Positions 1,902 to 60,752 of a stretch of DNA of 64,000 bases are shown piece by piece. Under the pieces are notes generated by a model, which was not told the origin of the DNA, ran no database searches, and saw only the letters and a program-made list of their open reading frames with translations. The translations under genes and the position numbers were made by a program. Positions within the stretch are counted from its first letter, which is position 1, and every line of letters starts with the position of its first letter. The stretch lies in the NCBI GenBank assembly GCA_017934545.1, contig JAGBJI010000004.1, forward strand, positions 1 to 64,000. The letters are read 5' to 3'. Source of the DNA: Bacteroidales bacterium (GTDB taxonomy: Bacteria; Bacteroidota; Bacteroidia; Bacteroidales; P3).

Positions 1902-2026
1902 TTGTTGTTTTCAGGAAGCATTTTGTTTTGAACCGTCCAAAACGAAGTTTCAGACCGTCCGAAAGTATGTTTTGAACCGTCCGAAATGTGATTTCGGACG
2001 GTCTGAAAAAATTTGTTTTCAGGAAA
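1902..2026. repeat. 22-nt phased array F (ACCGTCC core)
   Basis: Four copies of ACCGTCC occur at 1932-1938, 1954-1960, 1976-1982 and, inverted, at 1996-2002. The first three are exactly 22 nt apart. TTTTCAGGA units sit one further period out on each side (A of CAG at 1913 and 2021, 22 nt from the nearest core centre). Copies three and four also form a perfect 12-bp hairpin with a GTG loop. The array lies in the 517-bp divergent gap between the T9SS cargo gene and dapD. Same architecture as the CATATG arrays, different core. Confidence 0.8.
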
Positions 2027-2123
2027 GAAAAAATTGTAATCAAAAAAGGGAAAAATAAAATGTAATAAAAGCGGCGGATTTTCCGTTTTTAACTTAATAA
2101 AAACACTGAAAAAAGATATTATT

Positions 2124-2927
2124 ATGTTGATAGACAGAAAACTTATAGAGGATGCGTGGCTTGACCGCACATTGTTGCAGGACAGAGCGGTAGTTAACGA
2201 CATCAACGACACGGTAACGCTGTTGAACCGCGGCGAAATACGCACGGCGGAGATGAAAGACGGACAGTGGGTGGTGAACAACTGGGTACAGAAAGCGATA
2301 ATACTTTATTTTGCCGTCAACAAAGTGAAAACGATTGAGGCAGGAGAGATTGAATATGCGGACAAAGTGCCGTTGAAAAAAGATTACATACAATGGGGAG
2401 TGCGTGCGGTGCCGGGTGCAATAGCACGCTACGGAGCGTATATAGCCAAAGGCGTGGTTTTGATGCCTTCGTTTGTCAACATAGGGGCATATGTGGACGA
2501 AGGAACGATGGTTGACACTTGGGCAACGGTAGGTTCGTGCGCCCAGATAGGCAAAAACGTCCATCTGGCAGGCGGCGTAGGCATAGGAGGCGTGCTTGAA
2601 CCGATAGGAGCATCGCCCGTAATAGTGGAGGACAACTGTTTCATAGGCTCAAGGTGCATAGTGGTGGAAGGAGCAAGAATATGTCAGGGTGCGGTATTGG
2701 GTGCAAACACGGTGATAACCGCTTCAACGAAAATAATTGACGTAACGCAGAGCGAACCTGTGGAATACAAGGGCATAGTGCCGCCGAACAGCGTGGTAAT
2801 ACCCGGAAGTTACACAAAAAAATTCGCCGCAGGCGATTACAACGTGAACTGTGCCTTAATCATAGGCAAGAGAAAAGAGTCTACGGACAAAAAAACATCG
2901 CTCAACGAAGCGTTGCGGATGTTTTAA
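2124..2927 (+). CDS. dapD: 2,3,4,5-tetrahydropyridine-2,6-dicarboxylate N-succinyltransferase
   Basis: A 267-residue protein of the DapD family. It transfers succinyl from succinyl-CoA to tetrahydrodipicolinate in the succinylase branch of lysine/diaminopimelate synthesis, in the cytoplasm. An N-terminal helical part is followed by a left-handed beta-helix of hexapeptide repeats (about residues 95-210, with VVLMPSFVNIGAYVDEG, VGSCAQIGKNVHLAGGVGIGG and GSRCIVVEGA) and a short C-terminal extension. Length is normal for the family. dapF of the same pathway is 13 kb away on the other strand, so the pathway genes are scattered. The gene ends 8 bp from the convergent gene at 2936, with no terminator visible between them. 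Confidence 0.95.
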   Translation: MLIDRKLIEDAWLDRTLLQDRAVVNDINDTVTLLNRGEIRTAEMKDGQWVVNNWVQKAIILYFAVNKVKTIEAGEIEYADKVPLKKDYIQWGVRAVPGAIARYGAYIAKGVVLMPSFVNIGAYVDEGTMVDTWATVGSCAQIGKNVHLAGGVGIGGVLEPIGASPVIVEDNCFIGSRCIVVEGARICQGAVLGANTVITASTKIIDVTQSEPVEYKGIVPPNSVVIPGSYTKKFAAGDYNVNCALIIGKRKESTDKKTSLNEALRMF

Positions 2928-2935
2928 AGAGTGAA

Positions 2936-4204
2936 TCAGGTTTTGTGTTTTTCTTTTTTAGCCGCAGGGAACAAGATATTGTTCAAAATAAGGCGGTAAC
3001 CGGGTGAATTAGGAAATAAATCCAAGTCGGTTTTGGGGTCGCCTACAAAGTGGCGGTAGTCTTCGGGGTCATGTCCGGAGAGGAACGACCATGTTCCCTT
3101 GCCGTATTCGCCGTGTATGTAGCGTACCTCGCCGAACGATTTGTTTTCGCCCATCACCAAGACGTTGGTTTTTAACAGCGACTTGCGGAAAGCCGTCGTC
3201 TGACCGTAGAACCCTTTGACTATACGGGTGTGGTTCTGCGTCAGCATGGTGGGTATCCAATCCCATTTGGCAGAAAAATCAAACAAGACGAAGACGTCGT
3301 TTTTTTCGTTGACATAGCGTTGACGTTCCTGCGACACGTCAATGTCGGAAATTCTGTATGCAGAGGGATTGGTTTCTATGGTAAAATTTTCAAATGCGAA
3401 ACAGTCGGCGTAATTCAATTTTTTTTGGGCGTCAAAGTCCATGGCGTCGCCGTCAAACATCTCGCGGCAGATGTCAACACCGTCCGCAGCCAAAGCAATG
3501 TCGTACGAATCGGTGGCACTGCACATGGCAAACATAAATCCTCCGCCGAGAACAAAGTTGCGTATTTGTTTTACTACCGCCAATTTCAGTTGCGACACTT
3601 TTTTGTAGCCAAGCGATGCAGCCAAATTCTCCTGGAATGCCACTTCTTCTTTGTACCACGCTGTTGTACGGTACGATGCCCAAAACTTTCCGTGCTGTCC
3701 CGTAAAATCTTCGTGATGCAGATGCAGCCAATCGTACAACGGCAGTTTTCCGTCCAGCACTTCTTGGTCGTAAACCACATCGTAAGGTATTTGGGCATAG
3801 GTCAGAACCAAGGTAACCGCATCGTCCCACGGCCGTTTGCTCTTTGGCGAGTATACGGCTATCTTCGGTGCTTTTTGCAATTGCACTATATCCATATTGA
3901 TTTCGGGGTCTGCGATTTCGGATTGTATGTTGGCGTATTGAATATCTGAAATTATTTCGTAGGTAACCCCACGTAAACGGCACAAACGCACGGTAGGTTC
4001 GTTTTCTTGCAGAGCAAAACTGCCTCCGCGGTAGTTTAACATCCAGTCAACGTCAATCTGCCGTTGCAATGCTTCGTATGCCACGCCGTAAGCTTTGAGA
4101 TGATTTTTTTGTTTGGCATCCATCGGTATTAAAACTACGGATGCAAAACACTCCGTCAACATTGCAATCAACGCAAAAGCGAAAATAAAAAAACGTTTTC
4201 CCAT
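2936..4204 (-). CDS. Exported protein of a Bacteroidota family often labelled 'asparagine synthetase B'
   Basis: A 422-residue protein with an N-terminal signal peptide (about 1-21) followed by the conserved opening LIPMDAKQKNHLKAYGVAY and LNYRGGSF. I recognise this as a Bacteroidota family commonly named asparagine synthetase B in databases. It has no N-terminal Cys nucleophile or ATP-pyrophosphatase domain, so the name looks unjustified. The central part (about 110-240: KIAVYSPKSK, HLHHEDFTGQHG, FVLGGGFMFAMCSATD) resembles a class I glutamine-amidotransferase-like or ThuA-like fold. It starts 2 bp after dnaB and is probably cotranscribed with it. Cellular role unknown. Confidence 0.75.
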   Translation of the reverse strand: MGKRFFIFAFALIAMLTECFASVVLIPMDAKQKNHLKAYGVAYEALQRQIDVDWMLNYRGGSFALQENEPTVRLCRLRGVTYEIISDIQYANIQSEIADPEINMDIVQLQKAPKIAVYSPKSKRPWDDAVTLVLTYAQIPYDVVYDQEVLDGKLPLYDWLHLHHEDFTGQHGKFWASYRTTAWYKEEVAFQENLAASLGYKKVSQLKLAVVKQIRNFVLGGGFMFAMCSATDSYDIALAADGVDICREMFDGDAMDFDAQKKLNYADCFAFENFTIETNPSAYRISDIDVSQERQRYVNEKNDVFVLFDFSAKWDWIPTMLTQNHTRIVKGFYGQTTAFRKSLLKTNVLVMGENKSFGEVRYIHGEYGKGTWSFLSGHDPEDYRHFVGDPKTDLDLFPNSPGYRLILNNILFPAAKKEKHKT

Positions 4205-4206
4205 TA

Positions 4207-5739
4207 TCAGAACGGCGTTTCGTCGGTTTCTACGGGCATAGTGCCGCCCTGCATTTGCGAAGTGTTCATCTTGGAGTCCATGACGATGGTCTGCGGCTGT
4301 GAATCAAAAGACGGATTGGACAAAACCGACGTCGGTACGGTGTTGTTCAGATTGTAAAACTTGACAAATCTGCCCTGAAAGCCCAAACGTGCCTTATTCA
4401 ACGCTCCCGCTCTGTTTTTGGCAACGTTGATGTAGGCTATACCGCGTGTGGAACCGTTGCCGTCTTCCATCTCTCCGTAATATTCGGGACGGTAAATAAA
4501 CATGACGATGTCAGCGTCCTGCTCTATTGCACCCGATTCACGCAAATCCGAAAGCATAGGCTCTTTGCTTCCCCCGCGTTTCTCAACGTCGCGGCTCAGC
4601 TGCGAAAGAGCCAAGACGGGAATGCCCAACTCTTTGGCCAAACCCTTTAATTGACGGGATATATATGATATTTCCTGTTCTCGGTTGTTATTCCGTGTAT
4701 CTCCGCCGCTCATCAACTGCAAGTAATCTATGAAAACCATGTCTATGTTGTGGCTTTTCTTCATCCGCTTGCACTTTGCTTTCAACTCCATGATGTTCAG
4801 ACCCGGGTTGTCGTCAATATACATCCGGCAATTGCCCAACTCCCTGGCTTTTTGCTTGACTATTTCCAAATCGCTTGTGGATAACTGGTCGCCGCGTTTG
4901 AGTTTTTGACCCTCAATCTCGGCTTCGGAAGATATAAGCCGCATCATAAGTTCGTTGGCGGTCATTTCCAAAGAAAAAACCGCTATACTCTTGCCGAACT
5001 GCATAGCCATATTGCGTGCAATATTGAGTGCAAAAGCCGTCTTTCCCATTGCAGGACGGGCGGCAAGGATTATCAGCGTACCGGGTTGAAACCCTCCCGT
5101 GATGTTGTCCAAATCGGGAAAACCGCTTTCCAACCCTATGGTGTGCGAATCTGATTGTTGGGCAGCGTCAATATCCCTTACGGCAACCTCACTCAACATG
5201 CTCATGCTCTTTTCCTGCGAATTGAAGTTAACATCGTTGATTGCCAAGAAATTCGTTTCGGTTTCGTCAAGCAATGTAAGTATGTCGGTCGTATCACTGT
5301 AAGCAAATTTAAGCGTTTGGGTAGACAGGCGGATAAGTTCACGCTGTATATACTTTTCGGCGAGCATTTTTACATATGTTTCCACATGTGCCGCCGACGC
5401 TATGCGTTCCATAAGCGAAGCAAGTTTATACGAACCCCCTACGGCGTCAAACATGCCCATCTTTTTGAGTTTTTCGCTCACTGTAAGCACGTCAACGTCG
5501 CTTCCCTCCGCATTCAACGAATATATGGCGTGGAAAATTTCTTTGTTTTCCTGTTTGTAAAAATATTCTTCGTGCAATCTGTCAATGGTGTTTATCAACG
5601 CATCGTCGTCAATAATCATCGCACCCAAGACACTCTCCTCTATGTCCACAATCTGCGGCGGAATTTGGTTGTTGTTCAACGCAAAAGCCTGCTCCTGTGT
5701 CATCCGTATCCGTCTGTTATTGCTTTGTAAATCCGGCAT
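4207..5739 (-). CDS. dnaB: Replicative DNA helicase DnaB
   Basis: A 510-residue hexameric 5'-3' helicase of the replication fork. The N-terminal DnaB domain (about 20-130, beginning PPQIVDIEESVLGAMIID) binds primase. The RecA-like C-terminal domain has the Walker A motif ARPAMGKTAFALN near residue 230, the Walker B segment DMVFIDYLQLM and the typical LSQLSRDVEKR and LSDLRESGAIEQDAD motifs. No intein is present. I use the ATG at 5739 (MPDLQ) rather than the in-frame TTG at 5760, because the TTG lies inside the predicted -7 element TATATTTG at 5758-5765; MTQEQ 12 codons further in is another possibility. The exported protein gene at 2936 follows directly. Confidence 0.95.
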   Translation of the reverse strand: MPDLQSNNRRIRMTQEQAFALNNNQIPPQIVDIEESVLGAMIIDDDALINTIDRLHEEYFYKQENKEIFHAIYSLNAEGSDVDVLTVSEKLKKMGMFDAVGGSYKLASLMERIASAAHVETYVKMLAEKYIQRELIRLSTQTLKFAYSDTTDILTLLDETETNFLAINDVNFNSQEKSMSMLSEVAVRDIDAAQQSDSHTIGLESGFPDLDNITGGFQPGTLIILAARPAMGKTAFALNIARNMAMQFGKSIAVFSLEMTANELMMRLISSEAEIEGQKLKRGDQLSTSDLEIVKQKARELGNCRMYIDDNPGLNIMELKAKCKRMKKSHNIDMVFIDYLQLMSGGDTRNNNREQEISYISRQLKGLAKELGIPVLALSQLSRDVEKRGGSKEPMLSDLRESGAIEQDADIVMFIYRPEYYGEMEDGNGSTRGIAYINVAKNRAGALNKARLGFQGRFVKFYNLNNTVPTSVLSNPSFDSQPQTIVMDSKMNTSQMQGGTMPVETDETPF

Positions 5740-5757
5740 AATACATAATTTATTTTG

Positions 5758-5765
5758 CAAATATA
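5758..5765 (-). promoter_or_regulatory. Promoter -7 element of dnaB
   Basis: TATATTTG on the - strand fits TAnnTTTG exactly. It would give a 5' leader of only about 12 nt before the ATG at 5739, which argues against the longer TTG-initiated frame. Confidence 0.55.
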
Positions 5766-5798
5766 CAAAATTTCTTTCACCTTGTATAAACTGAAAAA

Positions 5799-5927
5799 AT
5801 TGTTTTCAGAAAACAAAAACAAAAAAACATATGTATTTTTTCAAAAAAACATATGAATTTTGATTAAAAAACATATGTTTTTTGTTTCAAAAACATATGT
5901 TTTTTTTCTGCGGATTCTGAAAACAAT
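5799..5927. repeat. 22-nt phased array A (CATATG core)
   Basis: CATATG occurs at 5828, 5850, 5872 and 5894, exactly 22 nt apart, each flanked by A-tracts on the left and mostly T-tracts on the right. The array is bounded by a 13-bp inverted repeat ATTGTTTTCAGAA (5799-5811) / TTCTGAAAACAAT (5915-5927), whose CAG/CTG centres lie 21.5-22.5 nt from the outer CATATG centres. It sits in the 330-bp gap between divergent dnaB and htpG. The rest of that gap holds the palindrome CCTATATTGTATATAAGG at 5973-5990 and a possible htpG promoter (TTTG at 6038-6041, TATAATTTT at 6065-6073). Confidence 0.95.
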
Positions 5928-6090
5928 ATTTTTTACCATCGGTTTTCATCTGCAAATTCACGCAAAAATATACCTATATTGTATATAAGGAGTAGCGAAA
6001 ACTGTCATTATGTCATACAATCTATTATGGAACAATGTTTGTCACGCCGTTAACCGAATCTGAGTATAATTTTAAAAACATATAAACATA

Positions 6091-7989
6091 ATGAAAGGTA
6101 AAATTAATGTAAAAACAGAGAACATCTTCCCTGTTATAAAAAAGTTTCTTTATTCAGACCACGAAATATTTTTGCGTGAGATAGTTTCCAATGCCGTAGA
6201 CGCAACCCAAAAACTTAAAACCCTTTCGTCAATAGGCGAAGTAAAAGGCGATTTGGGCGATTTGACCATTGACGTAAAGATAGACAAAGACAAAAAAACG
6301 CTTCACGTAATTGACCGCGGTATAGGTATGACCAAGGACGAAGTGGAGAAATACATCACCCAGATAGCATTTTCGGGTGCTGAAGAGTTTTTGGAAAAAT
6401 TCAAAGGCAAGAGCGAAACGGACATAAACCAACTGATAGGCCATTTCGGATTGGGTTTCTTCTCGTCGTTTATGGTTTCAGACCAAGTGGAAATATTTAC
6501 CAAGTCGTTCAAAGAAGGCAAAGGCGTTCATTGGACGTGCGACGGCGATACGGAATACTCAATAGAAGATTTTGACAAAACAGAACGCGGAACGGAGATA
6601 GTAATGCACATAACCGAAGAATGCAAAGATTTCCTTGAAGAATACAAAATACTTGAGTTGTTGAGGAAATACTGCAAATTTATGCCCGTTGCAATCCGTT
6701 TCGGCAAAGAAAAGACTTGGGAAGACTCCCCTACCGAAAAAGACAAGGACGGTAACGCCAAACGTATTGAGGTAGAAAAAGACAGAATAATAAACAACAC
6801 CGAACCGTTGTGGAAAAAAACTCCGTCGGAACTTAAAGACGAAGATTACAAAAAGTTTTTCCGCGAGTTGTATCCTATGAATTTTGACGACCCGTTGTTC
6901 CATATACACTTGAACGTTGACTATCCGTTCAATTTAACGGGTATTTTGTATTTCCCTAAAGTTAAAAAGAATATTGACCCTACGCAAGACAAAATACAAT
7001 TGTATTGCAATCAGGTGTTCGTAACCGATTCGGTTGAGGGTGTTGTGCCGCAATACATGATGCTTTTGCGGGGTGTGATAGATTCGCCCGACATTCCTTT
7101 GAACGTATCGCGTTCTTATCTTCAAAGCGATAACAACGTAAAGAAAATATCTTCGCATATATCCAAAAAAGTTGCGGAAAAACTTGAGGAGATAAGCAAA
7201 AAACAACACGACGAATTCCTTGATAAGTGGAACGATTTGAAGGTTTTCATTGAATACGGCATGCTTTCGGACGAAAAATTTTACGAAAGAATGAAAAACA
7301 TCTACGTATTCAAAAACACGGAAGGTAAATTCTTTACTTTCGATGAATACAAAACCAAAATATCTCCTGTTCAAACGGACAAAGACAAGAACATTATAGT
7401 TTTGTATGCACAAAACACCGACGTACAATACAGTTATATCCAAGCAGCAAAAGAAAAAGGTTACGACGTTTTGTTGATGGACGGAATTTTGGACTCGCAT
7501 TTCATCAATATGTTGGAACAGAAGAACGAGAAAATACGCTTTGCACGTATAGATTCGGACGTTATAAACAAATTGATTCAAAAAGACGAAACCGTACCTT
7601 CAAAACTTAACGAGCAGGAAACTACAAAGGTCAAAGAAATGATGGAGAATTTGGTTGACAAAAAAACATTCACCGTCCTTACAGAGCCGCTTGACGAAAA
7701 CGCACAGCCCGTTACCGTGACCCAAAACGAGTTTATGCGTCGTATGAAAGACATGAGCGAGTTGGGAGGCGGCGGAATGTACGGTTTGTACGGCGAAATG
7801 CCAGACAGTTACAACCTTGTAATCAACACAAACCACCCCGCAATATACAACCTTGTGCAAAGCCAGGACGAAGAACACAAAACGCAGGTACTTTCCCAGC
7901 TTAAAGATTTGGCATTGCTATCTCAAGGATTGTTGAAAGGCGAAGCCCTTGACACGTTTATAAAACGTTCAACAAAGATAATAGAATGA
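6091..7989 (+). CDS. htpG: Molecular chaperone HtpG (Hsp90 family)
   Basis: A 632-residue cytosolic ATP-dependent Hsp90 chaperone. The N-terminal GHKL ATPase domain shows REIVSNAVDA (catalytic Glu and nucleotide-binding Asn, about 27-37), DRGIGM near 75 and the ATP-lid motif GHFGLGFFSSFM near 117-128. The middle domain contains the conserved catalytic-loop Arg in NVSRSYLQ, and a C-terminal dimerisation domain follows. Length is standard. The gene is monocistronic with a good terminator 25 nt after the stop. I see no CIRCE element or other recognisable heat-shock operator upstream; instead array A lies about 160 bp before the start. Confidence 0.97.
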   Translation: MKGKINVKTENIFPVIKKFLYSDHEIFLREIVSNAVDATQKLKTLSSIGEVKGDLGDLTIDVKIDKDKKTLHVIDRGIGMTKDEVEKYITQIAFSGAEEFLEKFKGKSETDINQLIGHFGLGFFSSFMVSDQVEIFTKSFKEGKGVHWTCDGDTEYSIEDFDKTERGTEIVMHITEECKDFLEEYKILELLRKYCKFMPVAIRFGKEKTWEDSPTEKDKDGNAKRIEVEKDRIINNTEPLWKKTPSELKDEDYKKFFRELYPMNFDDPLFHIHLNVDYPFNLTGILYFPKVKKNIDPTQDKIQLYCNQVFVTDSVEGVVPQYMMLLRGVIDSPDIPLNVSRSYLQSDNNVKKISSHISKKVAEKLEEISKKQHDEFLDKWNDLKVFIEYGMLSDEKFYERMKNIYVFKNTEGKFFTFDEYKTKISPVQTDKDKNIIVLYAQNTDVQYSYIQAAKEKGYDVLLMDGILDSHFINMLEQKNEKIRFARIDSDVINKLIQKDETVPSKLNEQETTKVKEMMENLVDKKTFTVLTEPLDENAQPVTVTQNEFMRRMKDMSELGGGGMYGLYGEMPDSYNLVINTNHPAIYNLVQSQDEEHKTQVLSQLKDLALLSQGLLKGEALDTFIKRSTKIIE

Positions 7990-8013
7990 ACTGCGTCATA
8001 ATGCTAAAAAACC

Positions 8014-8044
8014 AAAAGGCGGAGCAAATTTGCTCCGCCTTTTT
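8014..8044 (+). terminator. htpG terminator
   Basis: The stem AAAGGCGGAGCA / TGCTCCGCCTTT with a tiny AT loop is followed by a T-rich tail just downstream of htpG. The A-run on the left may also serve the convergent gene at 8087. Confidence 0.88.
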
Positions 8045-8086
8045 CATAAAATTATAAAACATTTTTAAATATTGAAAAGATTTCTT

Positions 8087-8899: not shown

Positions 8900-8960
8900 C
8901 GTTTTTTAATTGTTTAATATGTTATACGGCGGTTTTCAAAAAAAGTTTATACAATATAAT

Positions 8961-8993
8961 TTTGCAAAGATATAAAAAAAATAGTTAAATTTG
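8961..8993 (+). promoter_or_regulatory. ispE promoter (TTTG / TAAATTTG)
   Basis: TTTG at 8961-8964 and TAAATTTG at 8986-8993 are separated by 21 nt, close to the Bacteroidota -33/-7 arrangement. Transcription should begin near 9000, which excludes the in-frame TTG at 8991 as a start codon. Confidence 0.65.
8965..8972 (-). promoter_or_regulatory. Promoter -7 element of the barrel gene
   Basis: TATCTTTG on the - strand fits TAnnTTTG. It lies between the putative -33 and -7 elements of the divergent ispE promoter, so the two promoters should interfere. Confidence 0.5.
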
Positions 8994-9023
8994 CAACACA
9001 AACTACACAAACAGTTCAAACAA

Positions 9024-9854: not shown

Positions 9855-9896
9855 TTCTTTTTAAATTCAGACCTATAATAACCGATTACTTTTAAT

Positions 9897-9930
9897 AAAT
9901 ACGCCGTTTTTTTTCGGCGTATTTATTTTT
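9897..9930 (+). terminator. ispE terminator
   Basis: The stem AAATACGCCG / CGGCGTATTT with an eight-T loop is followed by further T-rich sequence. It lies about 45 nt past the ispE stop. Confidence 0.85.
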
Positions 9931-10053
9931 TGTTTTCTCAAAAGAAAATAAAAAACATATGTATTTTTTCAAAAAAACATATGTATTTGAATCAAAAAAC
10001 ATATGTTTTTCGTTTCAAAAACATATGTTTTTTATTTTTCTTTTCTGAAAAGA
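9931..10053. repeat. 22-nt phased array B (CATATG core)
   Basis: CATATG occurs at 9956, 9978, 10000 and 10022, exactly 22 nt apart, in A-tract/T-tract context. TTTTCTGAAAA follows on the right (T of CTG at 10046, 21.5 nt from the last centre), with a degenerate TTTTCTCAAAA on the left (centre 9938). It occupies the gap between the convergent ends of ispE and the gene at 10083. Confidence 0.95.
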
Positions 10054-10082
10054 GATAAGAAAAAGACTGTAAAAAGACTGAT

Positions 10083-11210: not shown

Positions 11211-11221
11211 AATAATTTTTA

Positions 11222-11229: not shown

Positions 11230-11247
11230 CCGTTTATTAACAGGTTG

Positions 11248-16844: not shown

Positions 16845-16935
16845 ATGTGACGCCTTGTAAAATTCTTTTCTGAATCTAATTTTTTCTTTTCTGAAAACAA
16901 TTTTTTCTTTTCTGAAAAGAGTTTTAATAAAATGA
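16845..16935. repeat. 21-nt phased array J (three TTTTCTGAA units)
   Basis: TTTTCTGAA-type palindromes are centred at 16871, 16892 and 16913, exactly 21 nt apart, separated by A/T-rich spacers. There are no inner units of another core. This is the same motif that brackets the CATATG arrays. The flanks are only weakly inverted-repeat. It lies between dapF and the small membrane protein gene. Confidence 0.7.
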
Positions 16936-21499: not shown

Positions 21500-21620
21500 T
21501 TTGTGAAAAGAAAAATAAAAAACATATGTATTTTTCAAAAAAAACATATGAATTTTAATTAAAAAACATATGTTTTTTGTTTCAAAAACATATGTTTTTT
21601 TTAATTGCATTCAGAAATAA
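21500..21620. repeat. 22-nt phased array C (CATATG core)
   Basis: CATATG occurs at 21523, 21545, 21567 and 21589, exactly 22 nt apart. A degenerate TGTGAAAA (centre 21504) and ATTCAGAAA (centre 21613) lie 21.5 nt beyond the outer cores. It lies between two co-directional - strand genes. Confidence 0.95.
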
Positions 21621-26770: not shown

Positions 26771-26893
26771 TTCTTTTCAGAAAAGAAAAATAAAAAACAT
26801 ATGTATTTTTATAAAAAAACATATGAATTTTAATCAAAAAACATATGTTTTTCGTTTAAAAAACATATGTTTTTTTTCTTTACGTTCTGCAAA
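26771..26893. repeat. 22-nt phased array D (CATATG core)
   Basis: CATATG occurs at 26798, 26820, 26842 and 26864, exactly 22 nt apart. The left bracket TTTTCAGAAAA is centred at 26779 and a degenerate right bracket (TTCTGCAAA) at 26888, each 21.5 nt from the adjacent core. It accounts for most of the 322-bp gap between the MATE gene end and the TolC operon promoter. Confidence 0.95.
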
Positions 26894-34301: not shown

Positions 34302-34453
34302 CCGCCCTATGTCGTTTAAATTCCGCCCTATGTCAAAACGCCGCCGCCCTTTCAGAAAGTAATCACGAAAAAATGTGGTTTTTTACCCTAAAAAATCACA
34401 TTTTTTCACTCAAAAAACCTATTTTTTTTGACATTACTTTCAGAAAGGGCGGC
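34302..34453. repeat. 21-22-nt phased array I (CCGCCCT and A-core-T units)
   Basis: A 21-nt inverted repeat (34343-34363 and 34433-34453; arms begin GCCGCCCTTTCAGAAAG, with one central mismatch) encloses three A-core-T units: AAAATGTGGTTTT, AAAATCACATTTT and AAAACCTATTTT, centred near 34376, 34398 and 34420. The outer CAG centres are at 34354 and 34442, all in a 22-nt register. To the left CCGCCCTATGTC is repeated at 34302 and 34323 and continues as CCGCCCT at 34344, 21 nt apart, so the register extends beyond the inverted repeat. It lies in the 346-bp gap between the tRNA and the RND operon; nothing else is seen there except the terminator at 34483-34506. Confidence 0.8.
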
Positions 34454-41423: not shown

Positions 41424-41550
41424 TCCGTTTTCAGAACCTAAAATAAAAAAAACATATGTTTTTGAAGAAAAAAACATATGAATTTTGATTAAAAAACATA
41501 TGTTTTTAAAACAAAAAACATATGTTTTTTTTCCGTGCTTTCTGAAAGTA
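41424..41550. repeat. 22-nt phased array E (CATATG core)
   Basis: CATATG occurs at 41453, 41475, 41497 and 41519, exactly 22 nt apart; CAG is centred at 41433 and CTG at 41543, 21.5-22.5 nt beyond. It lies in the 619-bp divergent gap between the TetR gene and the small membrane protein. The rest of the gap holds the TetR promoter side and, to the right, the AT-rich repeats at 41648-41698. Confidence 0.95.
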
Positions 41551-47321: not shown

Positions 47322-47397
47322 AAAGTGTCGTTTTAAAAAATTCTTTTCAGAAAACAATTTTTTCTTTTCAGAAAAGAATTTTTTAAAACGACGCTTT
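47322..47397. repeat. 21-nt phased array K (two CAG units in a 22-bp inverted repeat)
   Basis: Inverted repeats at 47322-47343 and 47376-47397 (arms start AAAGTGTCGTTTTAAAAAAT, 21 of 22 matching) enclose two TTTTCAGAAAA palindromes centred at 47349 and 47370, 21 nt apart. This is the shortest member of the phased-array family, between pepD and the metallopeptidase gene. Confidence 0.8.
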
Positions 47398-53814: not shown

Positions 53815-53848
53815 AAAAGTAAAATTTATAAATGCTTAAATTTTGTCG

Positions 53849-53879
53849 CTGCCGTTGCGTTTATGCAACGGCAGTTTTT
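53849..53879 (+). terminator. Terminator of the arcA-DUF2723 unit
   Basis: A perfect 10-bp stem CTGCCGTTGC / GCAACGGCAG with a 6-nt loop and a T5 tail, 35 nt past the stop. Confidence 0.88.
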
Positions 53880-53952
53880 GTTTGTATATACCGGTATTAC
53901 GCACAGAAAAATTTACCCATCATTGAGTATTGCCGCACATAAAAAACGTATC

Positions 53953-53960
53953 TAATTTTG
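53953..53960 (+). promoter_or_regulatory. Promoter -7 element of the large T9SS protein
   Basis: TAATTTTG fits TAnnTTTG, 59 nt upstream of ATG 54019. Confidence 0.5.
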
Positions 53961-54018
53961 CAAACCGGATTTTTTAACAAAAAACTATACAAACAAACAC
54001 AAAACAACAAAAGTAAAA

Positions 54019-57000
54019 ATGAAAAAAATAATTGTATGTTTTGCCTTGCTCACAGCGGCATTGGTAACATCGGCACAAAATGACAACACATGCGAAAAAC
54101 CTATGGGTTTGCAGGTAACGGAGATTTATCCTGACGGAGCGAAACTCCAATGGCACGAATCCGAAAGTTCAGGCTATTATTACGTATACTACAAAAAACA
54201 AAACGCATCGCAATACGACTCGGTCTTGGTGACTGACACCGTATTTGAAATGGAGCAAATGCTGGATTCTTCGTCCGTATACAGTATATACGTCCGCACT
54301 TTCTGCGACGAGGACGACTTTTCGGACAAAAGCAATGAAGTCACGGTCAACACGGATTGCAGCAATTTGAGTGTATTCCCTTACAAAGAAGACTTTGAAC
54401 AGTACGGAAGCAACGTTGACTTTCCGCCTTGTTGGATTATATCCAAAGGTGACGAGTGGGGACCGTATATTACGGGCAATATGGTCAGCGGAAGCTTTGT
54501 TTTGATGATGCCCGAAAGCGGCGACATGCAGGTTTTCGCTCTTCCGAGGGTGGATAGCGGCATTGATGTCACATCACTCAAAGTTTCTTTCAACTACAAA
54601 AGCAAATGGGTAGGCATGCCGTTGGCTGTAGGCGTAATGTCAGACCCATACGACGTAAACACATTTGTTCTTGTTGACACCGTATCGGCATGGGAAAGCC
54701 TTGTATACAAAAAATACACCGTAACATTTGATACATATGAGGATTCGGGCAAATACGTTGCCTTTTATTTAGGATATCCTTACGTAACGGGCGTATCGTA
54801 CCCGTCTTGCTTTATTGACGATGTGGAACTTGACTTGGCTGTAAGCGACAGTGCATGTTCATTGCCTCCGTCTTTTGTAACGGTAAGCGAAATAACGCAG
54901 GACAATGCCTTAGTCAATTGGAAAGAAAACACGCCTGCACAAAGTTGGTACGTATATTTCAAACCGAAAAACGCAACCGTATACGACTCCGTATTGGTTG
55001 AAGACAGCACAAAATATGATTTCCAATACCAATTGGACGAAAACACCGAATACTCTTTGTATGTGAGGGCTTATTGTTCGGAAGATTTGTCGGCATGTTC
55101 CGACACCGTAAGTTTCAAAACTCTTTGCTACGATATTGAAGAGCTGCCTTACAAAGAAAATTTCAACTCTTATGCCGTCAACACCTACCCTTCCTGTTGG
55201 TTCATCGCAAGTGAATATCACAGCTATTCGTACGGCGATTTTCCGTCCGTAGTTGCCGACATTCATGCAGCCAAAGACAAGTGTCTTTCCTTACGCAGTG
55301 ATTACCAAACGCCGTGCATTGCAGTTTTTACACGGCTTTCTGACGATATAGACATAACCTCGCTTACTCTTTGCTTTGATTATCTGTCTGTCAGCACATC
55401 ACAGTCCATGACGGTGGGAATCATGGATTCACCTTTTGACACCTCTTCGTTTTGGGCTGCCGACACGGTAAAAAGCATCAACGTAAACACATGGGAAAAC
55501 AAAAAAGTAAAATTCACCGATTACCAAGGACAGGGACGCTATATAGCTTTGTTTTTGGACAAAACCAATTCTTATACAGTCAATGCCGAAGTGCGTGCGG
55601 ACGATATAGTTTTGGATTCCGCAGAAGACGAAGAGCCTTGTGCCAAAGCACCGTCTTCGCTGTCCGTCAGCAATATAACATCCTCTTCAGCATGGGTTAC
55701 ATGGGACGAAGACGACGAAATCAATATTGACTCTTGGTATTTGTATTACAAAAAATCATCGTCCGTTGTTTATGACTCCGTTCAATGCGATTCAAACAAA
55801 TATTTCTTCAACCAAACGCTTTTGTCTTCCGAAAGTTACGATGTCTACGTGGTTGCCGTGTGCGACGAAGAAACGTTTTCCGACCCTTCAACGCTTTTGA
55901 CCTTTTCTACCAAGTGTCAAGGTATAGATTCACTGCCTTACAGTGAGAATTTCAACACATGGGAATACAATGAATTTTCACCGTGTTGGTTCCGCACAAC
56001 CGACACCGAGATTATAGGACCCGAAATGCCTTACCCTACAATACTTGTCAACGGCTACAACCAATCCAATTGGCTGGCTTTTATGACTTCGGGGCAGGAA
56101 AAAAACATTGCCGTCATGCCTGCTTTGTCGCAAACGTTGGGTGATATAACCAACATCAAAATAAAATTCAGATACAACGACTTTTATTCGGGCCAACTTA
56201 TCGTAGGCATAATGCAAGACCCTGAAGACGAAAGTACTTTCACTGCCGTTGACACCGTCACATCAACAGGTTCATGGGACGAAAAACAAGTTGAGTTCAG
56301 CTCATGTCTGTCTTCTGGACGTCATATTGCCTTTTATGCAGGTTGGCCTTACAACAACGGCAATGATGTGATGTTGGGCATTGACGAAATAGTGGTTGAC
56401 TATATCCAAACGCCTGCCCAACCGTGCCAAGACGTGCAAACCGTTATCAATGCCCAGATAACCGAGGGTGAAACCTATACGTTGAACGGTTTTAACGAAA
56501 GTGAAGAAGGTGTATACACATTGAATCTTCAGACTTACGACGGTTGCGACTCCACGGTTACACTTCACCTTACCGTTATTGCCCTGCCCGAACCGTGTGA
56601 AGACGTACAAACCGAACTGCATGCCCAGATAACCGAAGGCGAAACCTATGCGTTGAACGGTTTTAACGAAAGCAAGGAGGGTGTATATACTTTGAATCTT
56701 CAGACTTACGACGGTTGCGACTCTACGGTTACGCTTTATTTGACCGTAATGTCAAACTCATTGACCGATGCTCAAACATCAAGCAATGAAATAAGCCTTT
56801 ACCCTAACCCCGTAACCGATGTATTGCAACTGCATGCCGACGCCAAAACGCAGATTAAGAAAATAACCGTAATCAACTGCGAAGGCAAAACTATGGACAT
56901 TGCCCTTGACAAAACCGATGCCCGCAGAGTTCAAATCAATGCTTCACACTTGGCAAAAGGACAATATTATATAATCATTGAAACCGAAAAACAAACAATA

Positions 57001-57024
57001 ACCAAACCGTTTATCAAACAATAA
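54019..57024 (+). CDS. Large surface protein with FN3/jelly-roll repeats and T9SS type A sorting domain
   Basis: A 1001-residue protein. A signal peptide (about 1-19) is followed by three repeats of an FN3-like domain (starting about 27, 284 and 546, each with WYVYFKPKNA- or YYVYYKKQNA-like strands and a C-terminal Cys) plus a cleaved-adhesin-like jelly roll (LPYKEDFEQYG, LPYKENFNSYA, LPYSENFNTWE openings; FPPCW, YPSCW, FSPCW). Then come two near-identical 57-residue repeats (about 802-910) and the C-terminal sorting domain (about 925-1001: LYPNPVTDVLQLH, KGQYYIIIETEKQ). Such proteins are usually adhesins or proteases of the surface; no protease motif is visible. Monocistronic. Confidence 0.85.
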   Translation: MKKIIVCFALLTAALVTSAQNDNTCEKPMGLQVTEIYPDGAKLQWHESESSGYYYVYYKKQNASQYDSVLVTDTVFEMEQMLDSSSVYSIYVRTFCDEDDFSDKSNEVTVNTDCSNLSVFPYKEDFEQYGSNVDFPPCWIISKGDEWGPYITGNMVSGSFVLMMPESGDMQVFALPRVDSGIDVTSLKVSFNYKSKWVGMPLAVGVMSDPYDVNTFVLVDTVSAWESLVYKKYTVTFDTYEDSGKYVAFYLGYPYVTGVSYPSCFIDDVELDLAVSDSACSLPPSFVTVSEITQDNALVNWKENTPAQSWYVYFKPKNATVYDSVLVEDSTKYDFQYQLDENTEYSLYVRAYCSEDLSACSDTVSFKTLCYDIEELPYKENFNSYAVNTYPSCWFIASEYHSYSYGDFPSVVADIHAAKDKCLSLRSDYQTPCIAVFTRLSDDIDITSLTLCFDYLSVSTSQSMTVGIMDSPFDTSSFWAADTVKSINVNTWENKKVKFTDYQGQGRYIALFLDKTNSYTVNAEVRADDIVLDSAEDEEPCAKAPSSLSVSNITSSSAWVTWDEDDEINIDSWYLYYKKSSSVVYDSVQCDSNKYFFNQTLLSSESYDVYVVAVCDEETFSDPSTLLTFSTKCQGIDSLPYSENFNTWEYNEFSPCWFRTTDTEIIGPEMPYPTILVNGYNQSNWLAFMTSGQEKNIAVMPALSQTLGDITNIKIKFRYNDFYSGQLIVGIMQDPEDESTFTAVDTVTSTGSWDEKQVEFSSCLSSGRHIAFYAGWPYNNGNDVMLGIDEIVVDYIQTPAQPCQDVQTVINAQITEGETYTLNGFNESEEGVYTLNLQTYDGCDSTVTLHLTVIALPEPCEDVQTELHAQITEGETYALNGFNESKEGVYTLNLQTYDGCDSTVTLYLTVMSNSLTDAQTSSNEISLYPNPVTDVLQLHADAKTQIKKITVINCEGKTMDIALDKTDARRVQINASHLAKGQYYIIIETEKQTITKPFIKQ
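56422..56763 (+). repeat. Tandem 171-bp (57-residue) coding repeat
   Basis: Two near-identical segments start at 56422 and 56593 (exactly 171 bp apart), each with PC-DVQT, AQITEGETY-LNGFNES, and GVYTLNLQTYDGCDSTVTL. High nucleotide identity indicates a recent duplication. A related segment is found in the type B T9SS protein at 12809-14980. Confidence 0.85.
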
Positions 57025-57043
57025 AAACCTGAAAAACGGATTG

Positions 57044-57080
57044 AAACGGCGTTTAAGCAATGCTTAACGCCGTTTTGTTT
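57044..57080 (+). terminator. Terminator of the large T9SS gene
   Basis: AAACGGCGTTTAAGCA and TGCTTAACGCCGTTT pair with one bulge; a T-rich tail follows. The array G starts immediately after. Confidence 0.8.
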
Positions 57081-57188
57081 TTGCCGTTTCAGAAAAGAGT
57101 TTCAAAAAAAGTGGTTTTTTGACTTAAAAAACCACTTTTTTTGGGTGAAAAAACCTGCTTTTTTCCGTTCTCTTTTCTGAATCGGCAA
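57081..57188. repeat. 22-nt phased array G (CCACTT/CCTGC core)
   Basis: Inverted repeats TTGCCGTTTCAGAAAAGAG (57081-57099) and CTCTTTTCTGAATCGGCAA (57170-57188), 18 of 19 matching, enclose AAAAGTGGTTTT, AAAACCACTTTT and AAAACCTGCTTTT units centred near 57112, 57133 and 57156. CAG/CTG centres at 57091 and 57178 keep the 21-22-nt register. It lies in the 354-bp gap before ppdK, which otherwise holds a terminator and the ppdK -7 element. Confidence 0.85.
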
Positions 57189-57315
57189 AATCGTTACAGC
57201 GTACGGCAAAAATAAAACCTGAAAACAATTTTTTTGCAACAGGGTTTCAACACCGTTTTTTGTACAAAAACACAACTTTATCCGATTTTTATACTGTTTT
57301 TTCCGCAAAAATCCG

Positions 57316-57323
57316 TAACTTTG
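57316..57323 (+). promoter_or_regulatory. Promoter -7 element of ppdK
   Basis: TAACTTTG fits TAnnTTTG, 56 nt upstream of ATG 57379. Confidence 0.55.
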
Positions 57324-57378
57324 CACTCTTGTTTTATGCAAGGATATATTTAATAATTTTTTATTTACATTTTTAATT

Positions 57379-60090
57379 ATGGCTAAAAAATATGTTTATA
57401 CCTTCGGAAACAGAGAAGCCGAAGGTGATGCATCAATGAAAAATCTCTTAGGCGGAAAAGGTGCTAATCTTGCACAGATGTGTCTTTTGAAATTGCCGGT
57501 TCCTGCCGGATTGACAATCACTACGGAATGTTGTACTGACTACTACCAAAACAATTGCTCACTTCCGAACGGACTTATGGAGGACGTTTGGGCTAAAATG
57601 ACTGAAATAGGAAACATAATGGGTGCAGTATACGGCGACGAAAACAATCCGTTGTTAGTTTCCTGCCGCAGCGGTGCAAGAATTTCAATGCCGGGAATGA
57701 TGGATACGGTTTTGAACATAGGTTTAAGCTCAAAAACCATACCCGGATTAATCAAACAAACCGATAACGAAAGATTTGTATACGATTCATACCGACGTTT
57801 GATTATGATGTATGCCGACGTGGTTATGGAAAAAGCCGAAGGCAAACAACCTGCAGACGGTGTGGGAATAAGAAAATTGCTTGACAATTACCTTGACAAT
57901 TACAAAAAAGAACACAACTATAAATCCGATACCGACCTTACGGCCGAAGATTTGAAATTTTTGGCACAGGAATTCAAACAAATCATAAAAGACAAACTTC
58001 AAACCGAATTCCCTGACGACGCAAAACTTCAATTGGAAGGCGGAATCAAAGCCGTGTTCAAATCATGGATGGGTGAAAAAGCCGTATCATACAGAAGAAT
58101 AGAAAAAATACCCGAAGATTGGGGAACAGCCGTTAACGTTCAGGCGATGGTATTCGGAAATATGGGCGAAGATAGTGCAACGGGTGTTGCTTTTACGCGT
58201 GACCCGGCTACGGGAGATAACAAATTTTACGGTGAATGGTTGATAAACGCACAGGGAGAAGACGTTGTAGCTGGTATACGTACGCCTAATCCTTTGAACG
58301 ACGCTACAAAGAACGCTCACAACAAACATTTGCCGTCCTTGCAGGAGAGCATGCCTGAGGTATACAAAGAATTGTATCAGGTAAGAAACAATTTGGAAGC
58401 CTATTACCACGACATGCTTGACATTGAGTTCACCATTCAGCACAAAAAACTTTACATGCTTCAGTGCCGTGTGGGAAAAAGAACGGGTACTGCCGCAGTT
58501 AAGATGGCCGTTGACATGCTTAACGAAGGTCTTATTGACGAAAAAACCGCTATATGCCGCGTTAACACCAACCAACTTGACGAATTGTTGCACCCTGTTC
58601 TTGACGCAAAAGACGAGGAAATGAAAACCGTTATCGGCAACGGTCTGCCTGCAGGTCCTGGAGGAGTATGCGGAAAGATTGCAATGACTTCCCGTGAAGC
58701 TATGCGGTTGAATGAACTCGGCGAAACCGCCATTTTGGTACGTGAAGAAACCAACCCTGAAGACGTAGAGGGAATGCGTGCCGCCGGAGGTATACTTACC
58801 GCACGCGGAGGTATGACTTCGCACGCCGCTCTTGTGGCAAGAGGATGGGGCAAATGCTGCATTGTCGGCAGCGAAGACTTGTCTATCATCTCCGACAAGG
58901 TGGTTAAAATAGGCGAAAAGATACTTAAAGAAGGCGATACCATCTCTTTGAACGGTTCAAAAGGCCATGTATACGAAGGAAGCATACGTATGGTGTCCCC
59001 TACCGACTCTCCTTTGTTCAGGGAATTCATGGCTCTTGTTGACAAAGTCAGCACTATAGGCGTGGAAACTAACGCCGACAACCCTACGGACACAAAACAA
59101 GCGTTGGATTTCGGAGCCCAGGGCATCGGATTGTTCAGAATAGAGCATATGTTCTACGGTAAAGACAGCGAAATACCTCTTGCAATAATGAGAAAGATAA
59201 TCCTGTCCGACACGACCGAATCCCGCAAGTTGTATCTTAACGCTTTGCTTCCGTACATGAAAGATTCAGTCAAATCAACGTTGAAAATCATGGACGGCAA
59301 ACCTGTTACGATACGTTTGATGGACCCTCCTTTGCACGAGTTTGCCCCTAAAGACGAACACCAACAAAAGATAATAGCGAGGGATTTGGGTATTACACTG
59401 AAAGAATTGCAGGACAGAATAATATGTTTGCAGGAAGTCAATCCTATGATGGGTATACGCGGTGTGCGTTTAGGCATATTGTACCCTGAAATAAGCCGTC
59501 TGCAGTTCAAAGCTCTGTTTGAAGCCGAAGCCGAAGTAAGAAAAGAAGGATTCAATCCGCATTTGGAGATAATGATACCTCTTACCATCTCCGTTGAAGA
59601 GTTGAAACACCAAAAAGCATTGTGCGACGAGATACATGCAGAGGTTGAAAAAGCCATGAATGCCAAGATTGAATACAAGTTCGGCACCATGATAGAGGTT
59701 CCGCGTGCCACTATGGCAGCGGGAGAGATAGCCAAGATGACGGATTTCTTCTCTTTCGGAACCAACGATTTGACCCAGATGACGTTCGGCTTCTCAAGGG
59801 ACGACGTAAATCTTATCTTAAACACTTATACCGAACAAAAAATTCTTCCTAACGACCCGTTCCAAACCATAGACAAAGAAGGTGTGGGACTGTTAGTAAA
59901 ACATGCTATCAAGCACGGAAGAAAAACCAACCCTAACTTGCGTATCGGTGTTTGCGGAGAACACGGCGGCGACGGCGAAAGCGTGAAATTTTTCTACAAC
60001 AGCGGCGTTGACTACGTATCATGTTCACCGTTCAGAGTACCTTTGGCTAAACTTGCCGCAGCACAAGCTGCAATTGAGGCACGCAGATAA
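57379..60090 (+). CDS. ppdK: Pyruvate, phosphate dikinase
   Basis: A 903-residue enzyme interconverting pyruvate + ATP + Pi and PEP + AMP + PPi, central to PPi-linked glycolysis in anaerobes. The N-terminal ATP-grasp domain (about 1-340: LLGGKGANLAQM, SCRSGARISMPGMMDTVLN), the phospho-His swivelling domain (catalytic His in ARGGMTSHAALVARGWGK), and the C-terminal PEP/pyruvate TIM barrel (QGIGLFRIEHMF, SFGTNDLTQMTFG, GVCGEHGGD with the catalytic Cys) are complete. Length is typical. Monocistronic with a strong terminator. Confidence 0.97.
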   Translation: MAKKYVYTFGNREAEGDASMKNLLGGKGANLAQMCLLKLPVPAGLTITTECCTDYYQNNCSLPNGLMEDVWAKMTEIGNIMGAVYGDENNPLLVSCRSGARISMPGMMDTVLNIGLSSKTIPGLIKQTDNERFVYDSYRRLIMMYADVVMEKAEGKQPADGVGIRKLLDNYLDNYKKEHNYKSDTDLTAEDLKFLAQEFKQIIKDKLQTEFPDDAKLQLEGGIKAVFKSWMGEKAVSYRRIEKIPEDWGTAVNVQAMVFGNMGEDSATGVAFTRDPATGDNKFYGEWLINAQGEDVVAGIRTPNPLNDATKNAHNKHLPSLQESMPEVYKELYQVRNNLEAYYHDMLDIEFTIQHKKLYMLQCRVGKRTGTAAVKMAVDMLNEGLIDEKTAICRVNTNQLDELLHPVLDAKDEEMKTVIGNGLPAGPGGVCGKIAMTSREAMRLNELGETAILVREETNPEDVEGMRAAGGILTARGGMTSHAALVARGWGKCCIVGSEDLSIISDKVVKIGEKILKEGDTISLNGSKGHVYEGSIRMVSPTDSPLFREFMALVDKVSTIGVETNADNPTDTKQALDFGAQGIGLFRIEHMFYGKDSEIPLAIMRKIILSDTTESRKLYLNALLPYMKDSVKSTLKIMDGKPVTIRLMDPPLHEFAPKDEHQQKIIARDLGITLKELQDRIICLQEVNPMMGIRGVRLGILYPEISRLQFKALFEAEAEVRKEGFNPHLEIMIPLTISVEELKHQKALCDEIHAEVEKAMNAKIEYKFGTMIEVPRATMAAGEIAKMTDFFSFGTNDLTQMTFGFSRDDVNLILNTYTEQKILPNDPFQTIDKEGVGLLVKHAIKHGRKTNPNLRIGVCGEHGGDGESVKFFYNSGVDYVSCSPFRVPLAKLAAAQAAIEARR

Positions 60091-60113
60091 TATTTTAAAT
60101 CAAAACAAACGAG

Positions 60114-60155
60114 AACGAGCGGAAAACTCTAAAAGTTTTCCGCTCGTTTTATTTT
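60114..60155 (+). terminator. ppdK terminator
   Basis: A perfect 15-bp stem AACGAGCGGAAAACT / AGTTTTCCGCTCGTT with a 5-nt loop is followed by a T-rich tail, 24 nt past ppdK. Confidence 0.9.
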
Positions 60156-60167
60156 TATCAGTTATAC

Positions 60168-60200
60168 AAAAAAAAGAACCTCTTTACAAAAAAGAGGTTC
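60168..60200 (-). terminator. Terminator of the small anchored protein gene
   Basis: GAACCTCTTT and AAAGAGGTTC (60176-60185, 60191-60200) form a stem; on the - strand it is followed by eight T. It lies head to tail with the ppdK terminator. Confidence 0.85.
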
Positions 60201-60237
60201 CCGCTATGAAATTCACGTTTTATAAATTTATTATCAA

Positions 60238-60483
60238 CTAATCTTCCTGCTCTTTGTTTTTCTTCAACTTGTATCCCAATGCAGCTCCGCCCAATCCTAA
60301 CATCAACAAAGTAGCCGTTCCCACAGGGCCTTTTTCTACTCTGTGTATGGACTGCTGTGCCTGACTGCTCGGTTTTTTTGACGGTTTAGGAGGTGTCTGT
60401 GCGTTTACACAAACAGAACCAGCCATCAGTATACTTATTGCCAAAATTTTTACAATCGTCTTTTTCATTGCCTTAATCATCAT
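60238..60483 (-). CDS. Small exported protein with C-terminal membrane anchor
   Basis: An 81-residue protein. A signal peptide (about 6-29, ending VCVNA) is followed by a Pro/Ser/Lys/Gln-rich segment (30-52), a hydrophobic Gly-rich helix (about 53-71, GPVGTATLLMLGLGGAALGY) and a basic end (KLKKNKEQED). This layout - signal peptide, short spacer, Gly-rich helix, basic tail - resembles PEP-CTERM-like sorting tags, but I cannot assign it to a named one. Start could be the second Met (MKKTIVK). Preceded by a -7 element at 60536-60543. Confidence 0.6.
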   Translation of the reverse strand: MMIKAMKKTIVKILAISILMAGSVCVNAQTPPKPSKKPSSQAQQSIHRVEKGPVGTATLLMLGLGGAALGYKLKKNKEQED

Positions 60484-60535
60484 TTTATATTTTTATACAT
60501 TTCTGTCTACTCTCCGTTGTCGGATTTTCAGTTTG

Positions 60536-60543
60536 CAAAATTA
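60536..60543 (-). promoter_or_regulatory. Promoter -7 element of the small anchored protein
   Basis: TAATTTTG on the - strand, 53 nt upstream of the start at 60483. Confidence 0.5.
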
Positions 60544-60614
60544 CAACTTTTTTTTATACTGTCAACCTTTTTTGTTTCTTTTTTCTTAAAAAAATTTATT
60601 TAAGTAAGAAAACG

Positions 60615-60752
60615 TTTTTGCCGAACGCCGCTTTAACTATGAAAAAACCACTTTTTTTTGACCGAAAAAACCTGCTTTTTTGAGTTAAAAAACCACTTTT
60701 TTATTTTGAAAAAAAGTGGTTTTTATGTCAGTGAATTCTGAATCGGCAAAAA
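60615..60752. repeat. 22-nt phased array H (CCACTT/CCTGC core)
   Basis: Inverted TTTTTGCCGA (60615-60624) / TCGGCAAAAA (60743-60752) encloses AAAACCACTTTT, AAAACCTGCTTTT, AAAACCACTTTT and the inverted AAAAGTGGTTTT, with cores starting near 60647, 60670, 60692 and 60716 (22-24 nt spacing). A right bracket TTCTGAATCGGCAA is identical to that of array G. The left CAG bracket is degenerate. It lies between two co-directional - strand genes. Confidence 0.8.

Follow-up and report, generated by a model that had tools for sequence, protein, structure and literature searches.

Intergenic rows of short palindromes with a two-turn register and exchangeable cores recur throughout the genome of a Bacteroidales bacterium

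The window analysed here, a stretch of 64,000 nt from contig JAGBJI010000004.1 of a Bacteroidales bacterium (assembly GCA_017934545.1), carries eleven intergenic arrays, each of them a row of short imperfect palindromes that follow one another every 21–22 nt. An earlier note, made from the letters of the window alone, had described these arrays, and by searching the same genome with each class of unit we found that they belong to a family repeated genome-wide, whose two-turn step is nearly invariant even if the core sequences differ. We put the probability at about one half that the arrays are rows of independent dimer-binding sites of several specificities, which serve at intervals along the chromosome as anchors or insulators. 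This reading rests on the two-turn register, the independence of the units, the even spacing across all classes and the indifference of the arrays to gene direction.

All eleven arrays were confirmed by reading the sequence (Table 1), and a unit scanner recovered 11/11 of them and no further one in the window at a score of at least 2.3; at a score of at least 2.0 a weaker candidate appeared at 63628. The patterns of this scanner were written after reading the window arrays and on the sequence of this genome (G000). A palindrome-chain detector that works without unit sequences (arm 8, at least 6 matches, units 20–23 nt apart) found 15 chains of at least three units in the window, namely 10 of the 11 arrays and five other places, compared with 0–2 in each of ten window shuffles (nine altogether). 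All seven chains of at least four units were arrays and the ten shuffles together gave one.

Contig C3 (137.5 kb) of the 2.38 Mb genome includes the window, and the census was made in a sample of 777.5 kb, a third of the genome (C3, C10:1-240k, C1:1-180k, C5:100-220k and C11:1-100k). This sample holds 121 arrays according to the unit scanner, or one per 6.4 kb, which fall into the classes Y (CATATG, 44 arrays), A2 (33), A1 (18), o (16) and P (10). Contig C3 alone accounts for 20 arrays, and none was found in three Markov-1 shuffles of it. Pattern searches of the own genome gave 215 triple-CATATG matches (two per four-unit array), 52 pairs of TTTTCWGAAAA (W being A or T), 360 overlapping matches to a pattern of three A/T-tract units (24 for the reversed control) and 20 places resembling the array at 1902. 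Extrapolating from the sampled third, the chromosome would carry hundreds of copies.

The spacing of the units is conserved across the sample. CATATG units follow each other after 22 nt in 126 of 130 cases (23 nt in three, 21 nt in one) and TTTTCWGAAAA units after 21 nt in 26/26, one distance of at least 60 nt being excluded, while the centres of class P units lie 21, 22 and 23 nt apart in 9, 16 and 2 cases, respectively. Inner units are about 17 nt long and separated by 4–5 nt; a class A unit consists of about six A, a core of 4–5 bases, about six T and then a variable pentamer. The TTTTCWGAAAA outer units lie in register with the inner ones, as the earlier note had it, and the cores are of several exchangeable kinds at a kept spacing. 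Core and orientation even differ from unit to unit, the most frequent core combination being present in only 2 of 49 distinct three-unit arrays of G000, and the inner CATATG block is found in either orientation with respect to the arms. An A-tract before and a T-tract after the core had been described for most inner units; this holds for the arrays concerned and is not general, as the units of the array at 1902 have the reversed order (T-tract, core, A-tract), the arrays at 16845 and 47322 are made up of outer-type units and units without A/T tracts exist in other species. The arrays also extend beyond the coordinates in Table 1 by about 2–4 weaker units per side, with a conservation that fades outward in 21-nt steps, most clearly in class A2.

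With respect to the genes, which were called as longest open reading frames (ORFs), 51 of the 57 arrays with a score of at least 2.0 on C3 and C10 are located wholly in gaps and six overlap called ORFs. For the gap counts, those of the orthologous gaps below included, called ORFs shorter than 700 nt were removed if they shared more than 40 nt with an array; arrays were then counted in 117 of the 298 gaps (39%) that had room for one or held one: 34/75 divergent, 18/58 convergent and 65/165 co-directional. Thus all three gap types are used, as had been noted in the window, and they do not differ significantly (p 0.25; divergent gaps against the rest, p 0.22). The arrays are placed far more evenly than gaps chosen at random: the interval between them has a median of 5.6 kb and a coefficient of variation (CV) of 0.534, against 0.869 for random gap choice, and 0 of 5000 simulations were as even as observed. 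With five different gap cut-offs the random CV was 0.710–0.880 and again 0/3000 simulations were as even at each of them. Intervals below 2 kb make up 4 of 116, when 22% were expected, and since neighbours of unlike class (3/51 below 2 kb) keep apart as do those of like class (1/65), the classes behave as one system. At the same time the classes cluster regionally while the overall spacing stays even: 50 of 116 neighbours share their class, compared with 28.6 expected (0/10,000 permutations); permutation inside the segments raises the expectation to 37.0 (p 0.0013).

All 11 window arrays fold as RNA better than their shuffle mean (z -2.65 to -11.38, one array shortened to 134 nt), so that hairpins, either as bidirectional terminators or as stem-loops or cruciforms similar to REP elements, had to be tested. 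Such hairpins would agree with the bias towards 3' ends in co-directional gaps, where 50 of 66 arrays lie closer to the end of the upstream gene than to the start of the downstream one. However, no spacer complementarity was found in any of 102 three-unit arrays of three species (0/102), and of these arrays 22 have complementary and 15 identical first and third cores, while in 65 the two cores are neither. Among the three species, complementary cores stand against identical ones as 6 to 3 of 49 in G000, as 7 to 10 of 36 in the congener G001 and as 9 to 2 of 17 in the congener G009 (neither in six), the last in favour of pairing. The two arms of an array resemble each other no more closely than they resemble those of other arrays (smallest p 0.08 in 20 class-by-block tests; Y 44, A2 32, A1 17, o 16 and P 10 arrays).

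We then exchanged the halves of different arrays, using 43 of the 44 arrays of class Y, 31/33 of A2, 12/18 of A1, 16/16 of o and 8/10 of P. The real array folded better than the mean of its chimeras in 1/43 (Y), 10/31 (A2), 6/12 (A1), 7/16 (o) and 3/8 (P) with a 30-nt flank and in 2/43, 14/31, 4/12, 6/16 and 4/8 with a 70-nt flank. The stability of the chimeras was thus about unchanged and for class Y even improved, where the two orientations of the blocks may favour the chimeras. Since the two halves of an array do not pair better with each other than with halves taken from other arrays, a hairpin is not the kept trait and the foldability follows from the shared symmetric consensus. The units are independent at the DNA level and seem to evolve one by one, as expected of DNA sites. 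The doubt of the earlier note about a long hairpin in the CATATG arrays was therefore justified by the spacer, arm and chimera tests. Neither the gap types nor the chimeras gave a sign of a simple terminator class, convergent gaps not being enriched (18/58) contrary to what is expected of intrinsic terminators, and within the two arrays scanned for them no terminator-like call was made; a separate terminator-like hairpin at 9894-9927 shares the gap of the array at 9931. We regard hairpins as an extremely improbable explanation, and a long hairpin or terminator was rejected as the kept trait.

In order to see how far the family extends, we searched genomes of relatives, whose arrays are under-counted because the unit patterns were built on G000. 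The triple-CATATG pattern was absent from 60/60 relatives searched. Rows of A/T-tract units gave 138 matches in G001, 66 in G009 (control 2), six in G002, four in G006 and two in G013, i.e. 0–6 in the eleven other congeners, together with one match in one species of another genus, the only one in 106 genomes outside the genus; the other 113 of the 120 genomes had none. Sampling showed that congeners keep the layout of a palindrome of about 17 bp followed by 5 bp while using unrelated cores. G009 has 34 TTTTCWGAAAA pairs, mostly with a different spacer, as well as P-like rows, and two class P rows are present in G004. G013 has rows of CAATAATGSCATTATTG with 25 pairs, all at 22 nt with a pattern that allowed 21 or 22 only, and when read without a spacing limit its rows show steps of 22 or 44 nt; such pairs were found in none of the 13 other genus genomes searched. 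In G007, rows of two to four TGCAARTCSGAYTTGCA units, all at 22 nt, occur in 4/13 loci. Small samples of G012, G008, G011 and G002 yielded 0–1 chains, compared with 0–1.3 in shuffles, and of eight samples taken outside the genus but within the family a single one gave a chain, which was a direct repeat. The A/T pattern is also found in other lineages among the matches listed, but 15 such genomes, picked because they had a match, contain it only once or twice each (reversed pattern: none in 11 of them, 1–3 in four), and a wide distribution was rejected.

Gaps between the same gene pairs were compared between species, with few array-bearing gaps available and many of the G001 and G009 loci fetched because they bear arrays. 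G001 has an array in 3/3 of the gaps that hold one in G000 and in 2/36 of the others (p 0.001), and pooling G001 with G009 gives p 0.005. In all three shared gaps the cores differ: TCAGA/TAGG/TCACA in G000 correspond to three times CAG in G001, TAG/TAG/TCAGA to CTA/CTG/CCC (CTA being common to both) and an o-type to a CGCCG-type array. In the gap of the array at 47322, G001 has an array of another type and G009 (99 bp) has none. Filled and empty orthologous gaps together with this comparison of cores show that arrays are gained or lost and that cores differ at kept positions.

If the arrays are anchors or insulators, each of them would offer three to five strong and several weaker sites to a symmetric, dimeric DNA-binding protein. 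Palindromes of about 17 bp separated by 4–5 bp would put neighbouring dimers on the same side of the helix at a distance of two turns, where they might touch and bend or wrap the DNA cooperatively, and different cores would reflect different specificities, either of paralogous proteins or of one fast-changing protein. Intergenic rows about every 6 kb could then pin or wrap the DNA, separate domains of supercoiling or transcription, or hold loops, and they would be neither regulators of single promoters nor ends of single transcripts. Among the suggestions of the earlier note, a nucleoid-structuring or boundary element fits best with the even spacing, the avoidance across classes and the lack of a clear gap preference, while that of a non-autonomous mobile element lost ground. 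A more elaborate version, which we consider quite unlikely, is a class-coded marking in which several proteins polymerise on evenly spaced rows of their own cores, clustered rows of the same class hold a region together or apart from others, and species replace protein and cores jointly but retain the 22-bp architecture and part of the positions.

A different reading starts from DNA shape, namely that A/T tracts phased at about 11 bp bend the DNA and wrap gyrase or HU, thereby providing supercoiling at intervals. With wedge parameters, a bend of 112 degrees was predicted for class Y and of 120–123 degrees for the A classes, compared with 37–45 degrees for shuffled copies and 60 degrees for 110 other gaps. 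HU and HU-HIG proteins are also encoded, and the motif of E. coli gyrase is extensive and degenerate and includes periodic areas, with cleavage sites over-represented in BIME-2 (PMC6379681). The predicted curvature is high in the CATATG and A/T classes and low in the TTTTCWGAAAA class, as class o reaches only 19 degrees (shuffled copies 35) and class P 74, although both join the one spacing pattern. Intrinsic curvature as the common feature was rejected because class o is straight, and since the units of G013 and G007 also lack A tracts we consider this explanation very unlikely.

Several results weigh against anchors or insulators, and many of them would suit the strongest rival, selfish elements that spread by copying or non-autonomous mobility and whose units are sites of a recombinase or transposase, comparable to the multi-site ends of Mu, Tn7 and IS21. 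In such a case target immunity and purifying selection would produce the even spacing and local hopping the regional clusters of classes. The copy number is patchy among congeners, which is odd for an essential architectural element, the genus-wide count covering A/T rows only. The best class Y copies are 88–97% identical over about 100 bp including the spacers, which would be expected had they been copied recently; 40 of 257 candidates were scored. Some of the orthologous gaps are tight and carry no array: that at 47322 measures 105 bp with the array in G000 and -17 to 30 bp without one in G013, G006, G002 and G007, each thereby counting 0/1 at this one shared array gap. G009 has an array in 0/2 of the gaps filled in G000 and in 2/31 of the others; one of its gaps (L128:15472-15575), entered as having no array, resembles a degenerate o-type array on visual inspection. 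Purifying selection on insertions would likewise lead to the placement near 3' ends. Two further points concern binding and pairing: no array-binding protein was identified among the few annotated paralog families of the sample, and the core complementarity in G009 is what a hairpin would favour and leans towards pairing.

On the other hand, several traces expected of mobility were not found. A search for target duplications with offsets of 5–89 bases and five lengths showed no offset that stands out for class Y (44 arrays), A2 (32), A1 (17) or o (16). Sharp terminal inverted repeats were not found either, as the information fades over several units and the arms are unmatched within an element. 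The Y1 transposase (PF01797, RAYT) was detected in 0/14 genus genomes (but in 5/14 control genomes) and an rve integrase over the cut-off in none of the 14; other transposase families were not searched. Three sub-threshold rve-like matches in long open frames are present in G004 (C75, C7 and C26), and at E 0.001 the 14 genomes contain no others. Arrays shared at orthologous gaps with different cores also speak against mobility. Three viral-contig scans returned 16, 5 and 6 loci, none of which resembled the arrays by eye, some having other tandem repeats, and a phage or viral origin was dropped. Miniature inverted-repeat transposable elements (MITEs) are small, intergenic and have symmetric outer arms, which the arrays share; an insertion of this kind was rejected as no target duplication stands out, and the arrays differ from MITEs also in their fading ends and unmatched arms. 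Taken together, we regard selfish elements as unlikely.

The arrays could finally be ordinary operators, i.e. rows of repressor sites that control the neighbouring genes. Lambda operators are palindromes of 17 bp placed two turns apart, a layout similar to that of the arrays, and divergent gaps show the highest share, if insignificantly. To look for binding proteins, 607 ORFs of the sample were searched for paralogs, resulting in 37 paralog families of which ten proteins were annotated, among them three HTH_3 proteins that we take to be HigA-like, three HU-HIG and two HU proteins (Table 1). Each of the three HigA-like genes has an array upstream, and the small ORF before the first of them (C10:109247-109574) is presumably a HigB-type toxin. 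At E 1e-3 the loci fetched from relatives contain no homolog of this HTH_3 family, the only one among the annotated families, and as 39% of the eligible gaps hold an array anyway, the HigA-like paralogs were dropped as binders. The HU-HIG proteins are possible nucleoid proteins for the arrays, although none of the annotated HTH_3, HU-HIG and HU proteins could be tied to them. Many copies, which adjoin unrelated genes in the window, the even spacing and the position of most co-directional arrays nearer to the end of the upstream gene all speak against operators, which we consider highly improbable.

With regard to known systems, a Rfam scan of the window brought only a tRNA to its gathering score and no match to an array, and searches of an open-access library, which leaves out most subscription papers, gave no described family with this row layout; within these limits the family matches no known repeat. 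REP/BIME elements of E. coli and relatives are short interspersed extragenic palindromes, usually in more than 100 copies, arranged in rows with regular spacing and alternating orientation (PMC12306157, PMC2817692). The likeness lies in such extragenic, regularly spaced rows, but REPs are defined as stem-loop formers, which is not the kept trait of the arrays; a GTAG/CGTC tag is a further mark of REPs that go with a RAYT. The arrays are set apart as well by the fixed two-turn register, by cores differing between loci and species and by the lack of a RAYT in the 14 genus genomes. Mycobacteriophage stoperators are numerous repressor sites across one phage genome, whose repressor recognises an asymmetric sequence (PMC9283540). 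Unlike these and the lambda operators, the arrays are chromosomal, in probably hundreds of copies and with several specificities per genome, and no repressor was identified for them, the three HigA-like paralogs of the sampled third showing no link. CdbA of Myxococcus has 569 chromosomal ChIP peaks, about 35% of them intergenic, with one direct-repeat motif and modest effects on transcription, and it bends DNA (PMC7156744); the arrays differ from this as intergenic rows of palindromes with exchangeable cores.

That relatives keep the layout but use other motifs hints at a mode of chromosome marking or organisation in bacteria that has not been described. If the arrays are anchors, they would correspond in bacteria to insulator or boundary elements, dense, regular and with several specificities per genome, and sequence alone would allow domain formation to be tested. 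In the case of selfish elements, they would represent a type of element that keeps a geometric register rather than a sequence. Either way, a layout separated from its core is unusual, and it provides a search rule, namely palindromes of about 17 bp every 22 bp.

Table 1: Positions of the arrays in the window and of proteins from annotated paralog families.
Feature	Position	Gap	Units and remarks
Array, class P	1902..2026	divergent	four TTTYRRACSGTYYRAAA units between TTTTCAG-type outer units; cores near 1934, 1956, 1978, fourth at 1998 in opposite orientation
Array, class Y	5799..5927	divergent	four CATATG units, 22 nt (5830, 5852, 5874, 5896); outer units TTTTCAGAAAA (5807) and TTCTGAAA (5918); flanked by DnaB-like gene and htpG
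Array, class Y	9931..10053	convergent	four CATATG units (9958-10024); outer units 9938, 10045
Array, class o	16845..16935		three TTTTCTGAAAA-type units, 21 nt apart (16870, 16891, 16912)
Array, class Y	21500..21620	co-directional	four CATATG units (21525-21592); outer unit 21613
Array, class Y	26771..26893	co-directional	four CATATG units (26800-26866); outer unit 26778; query by which the genome-wide CATATG class was found
Array, class A2	34302..34453		AAAAAATGTGGTTTTTT, AAAAAATCACATTTTTT, AAAAAACCTATTTTTTT (34376, 34398, 34420); inverted GCCGCCCTTTCAGAAAG-type arms outside
Array, class Y	41424..41550		four CATATG units (41455-41522); outer units 41432, 41542; flanked by TetR-like gene and + strand ORF
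Array, class o	47322..47397		AAAGTGTCGTTTT - TTTTCAGAAAA - TTTTCAGAAAA - AAAACGACGCTTT, steps 20.5-21.5 nt
Array, class A1	57081..57188	co-directional	cores AGTGG, CCACT, CCTGC (57112, 57134, 57156) flanked by A6 and T6 tracts; outer units 57090, 57177
Array, class A1	60615..60752		four A/T-tract units (60650, 60672, 60694, 60716), last oppositely oriented
HigA-like HTH_3 protein	L119:9558-9977		array upstream
HigA-like HTH_3 protein	L208:8823-9245		array upstream
HigA-like HTH_3 protein	L113:12505-12996		array upstream
HU-HIG protein	L120:12608-13042
HU-HIG protein	L114:4687-5088
HU-HIG protein	L211:6407-6841

Three places in other genomes were noted besides. In G009, three palindromes of the AAAGTATATAC type lie 23 nt apart at L179:19440 and possibly represent a further class. 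In G024, which belongs to the family but not to the genus, L147:18058-18185 is occupied by seven direct repeats of the AATTTCATTATAACCTGTAAT type, each about 21 nt long and not clearly palindromic. The Bacillota metagenome-assembled genome (MAG) SUG1229 has, near position 4357 of L240, a row of about six A/T-tract units whose cores vary and which are spaced by about 22 nt; the three-unit pattern occurs once in this genome, equal to the reversed control.

Contigs C4 and C7 of G000 (L183 and L184) share a stretch of 20 kb at an offset of 7440 that is identical and represents an assembly duplicate, through which one of the 20 places resembling the array at 1902 is counted twice. A comparison of strains by means of these two contigs was given up for the same reason, and the duplicate may be the source of the contamination estimate of 8.1%. 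The window also encodes tail domains of type IX secretion and the organism looks Bacteroidales-like.

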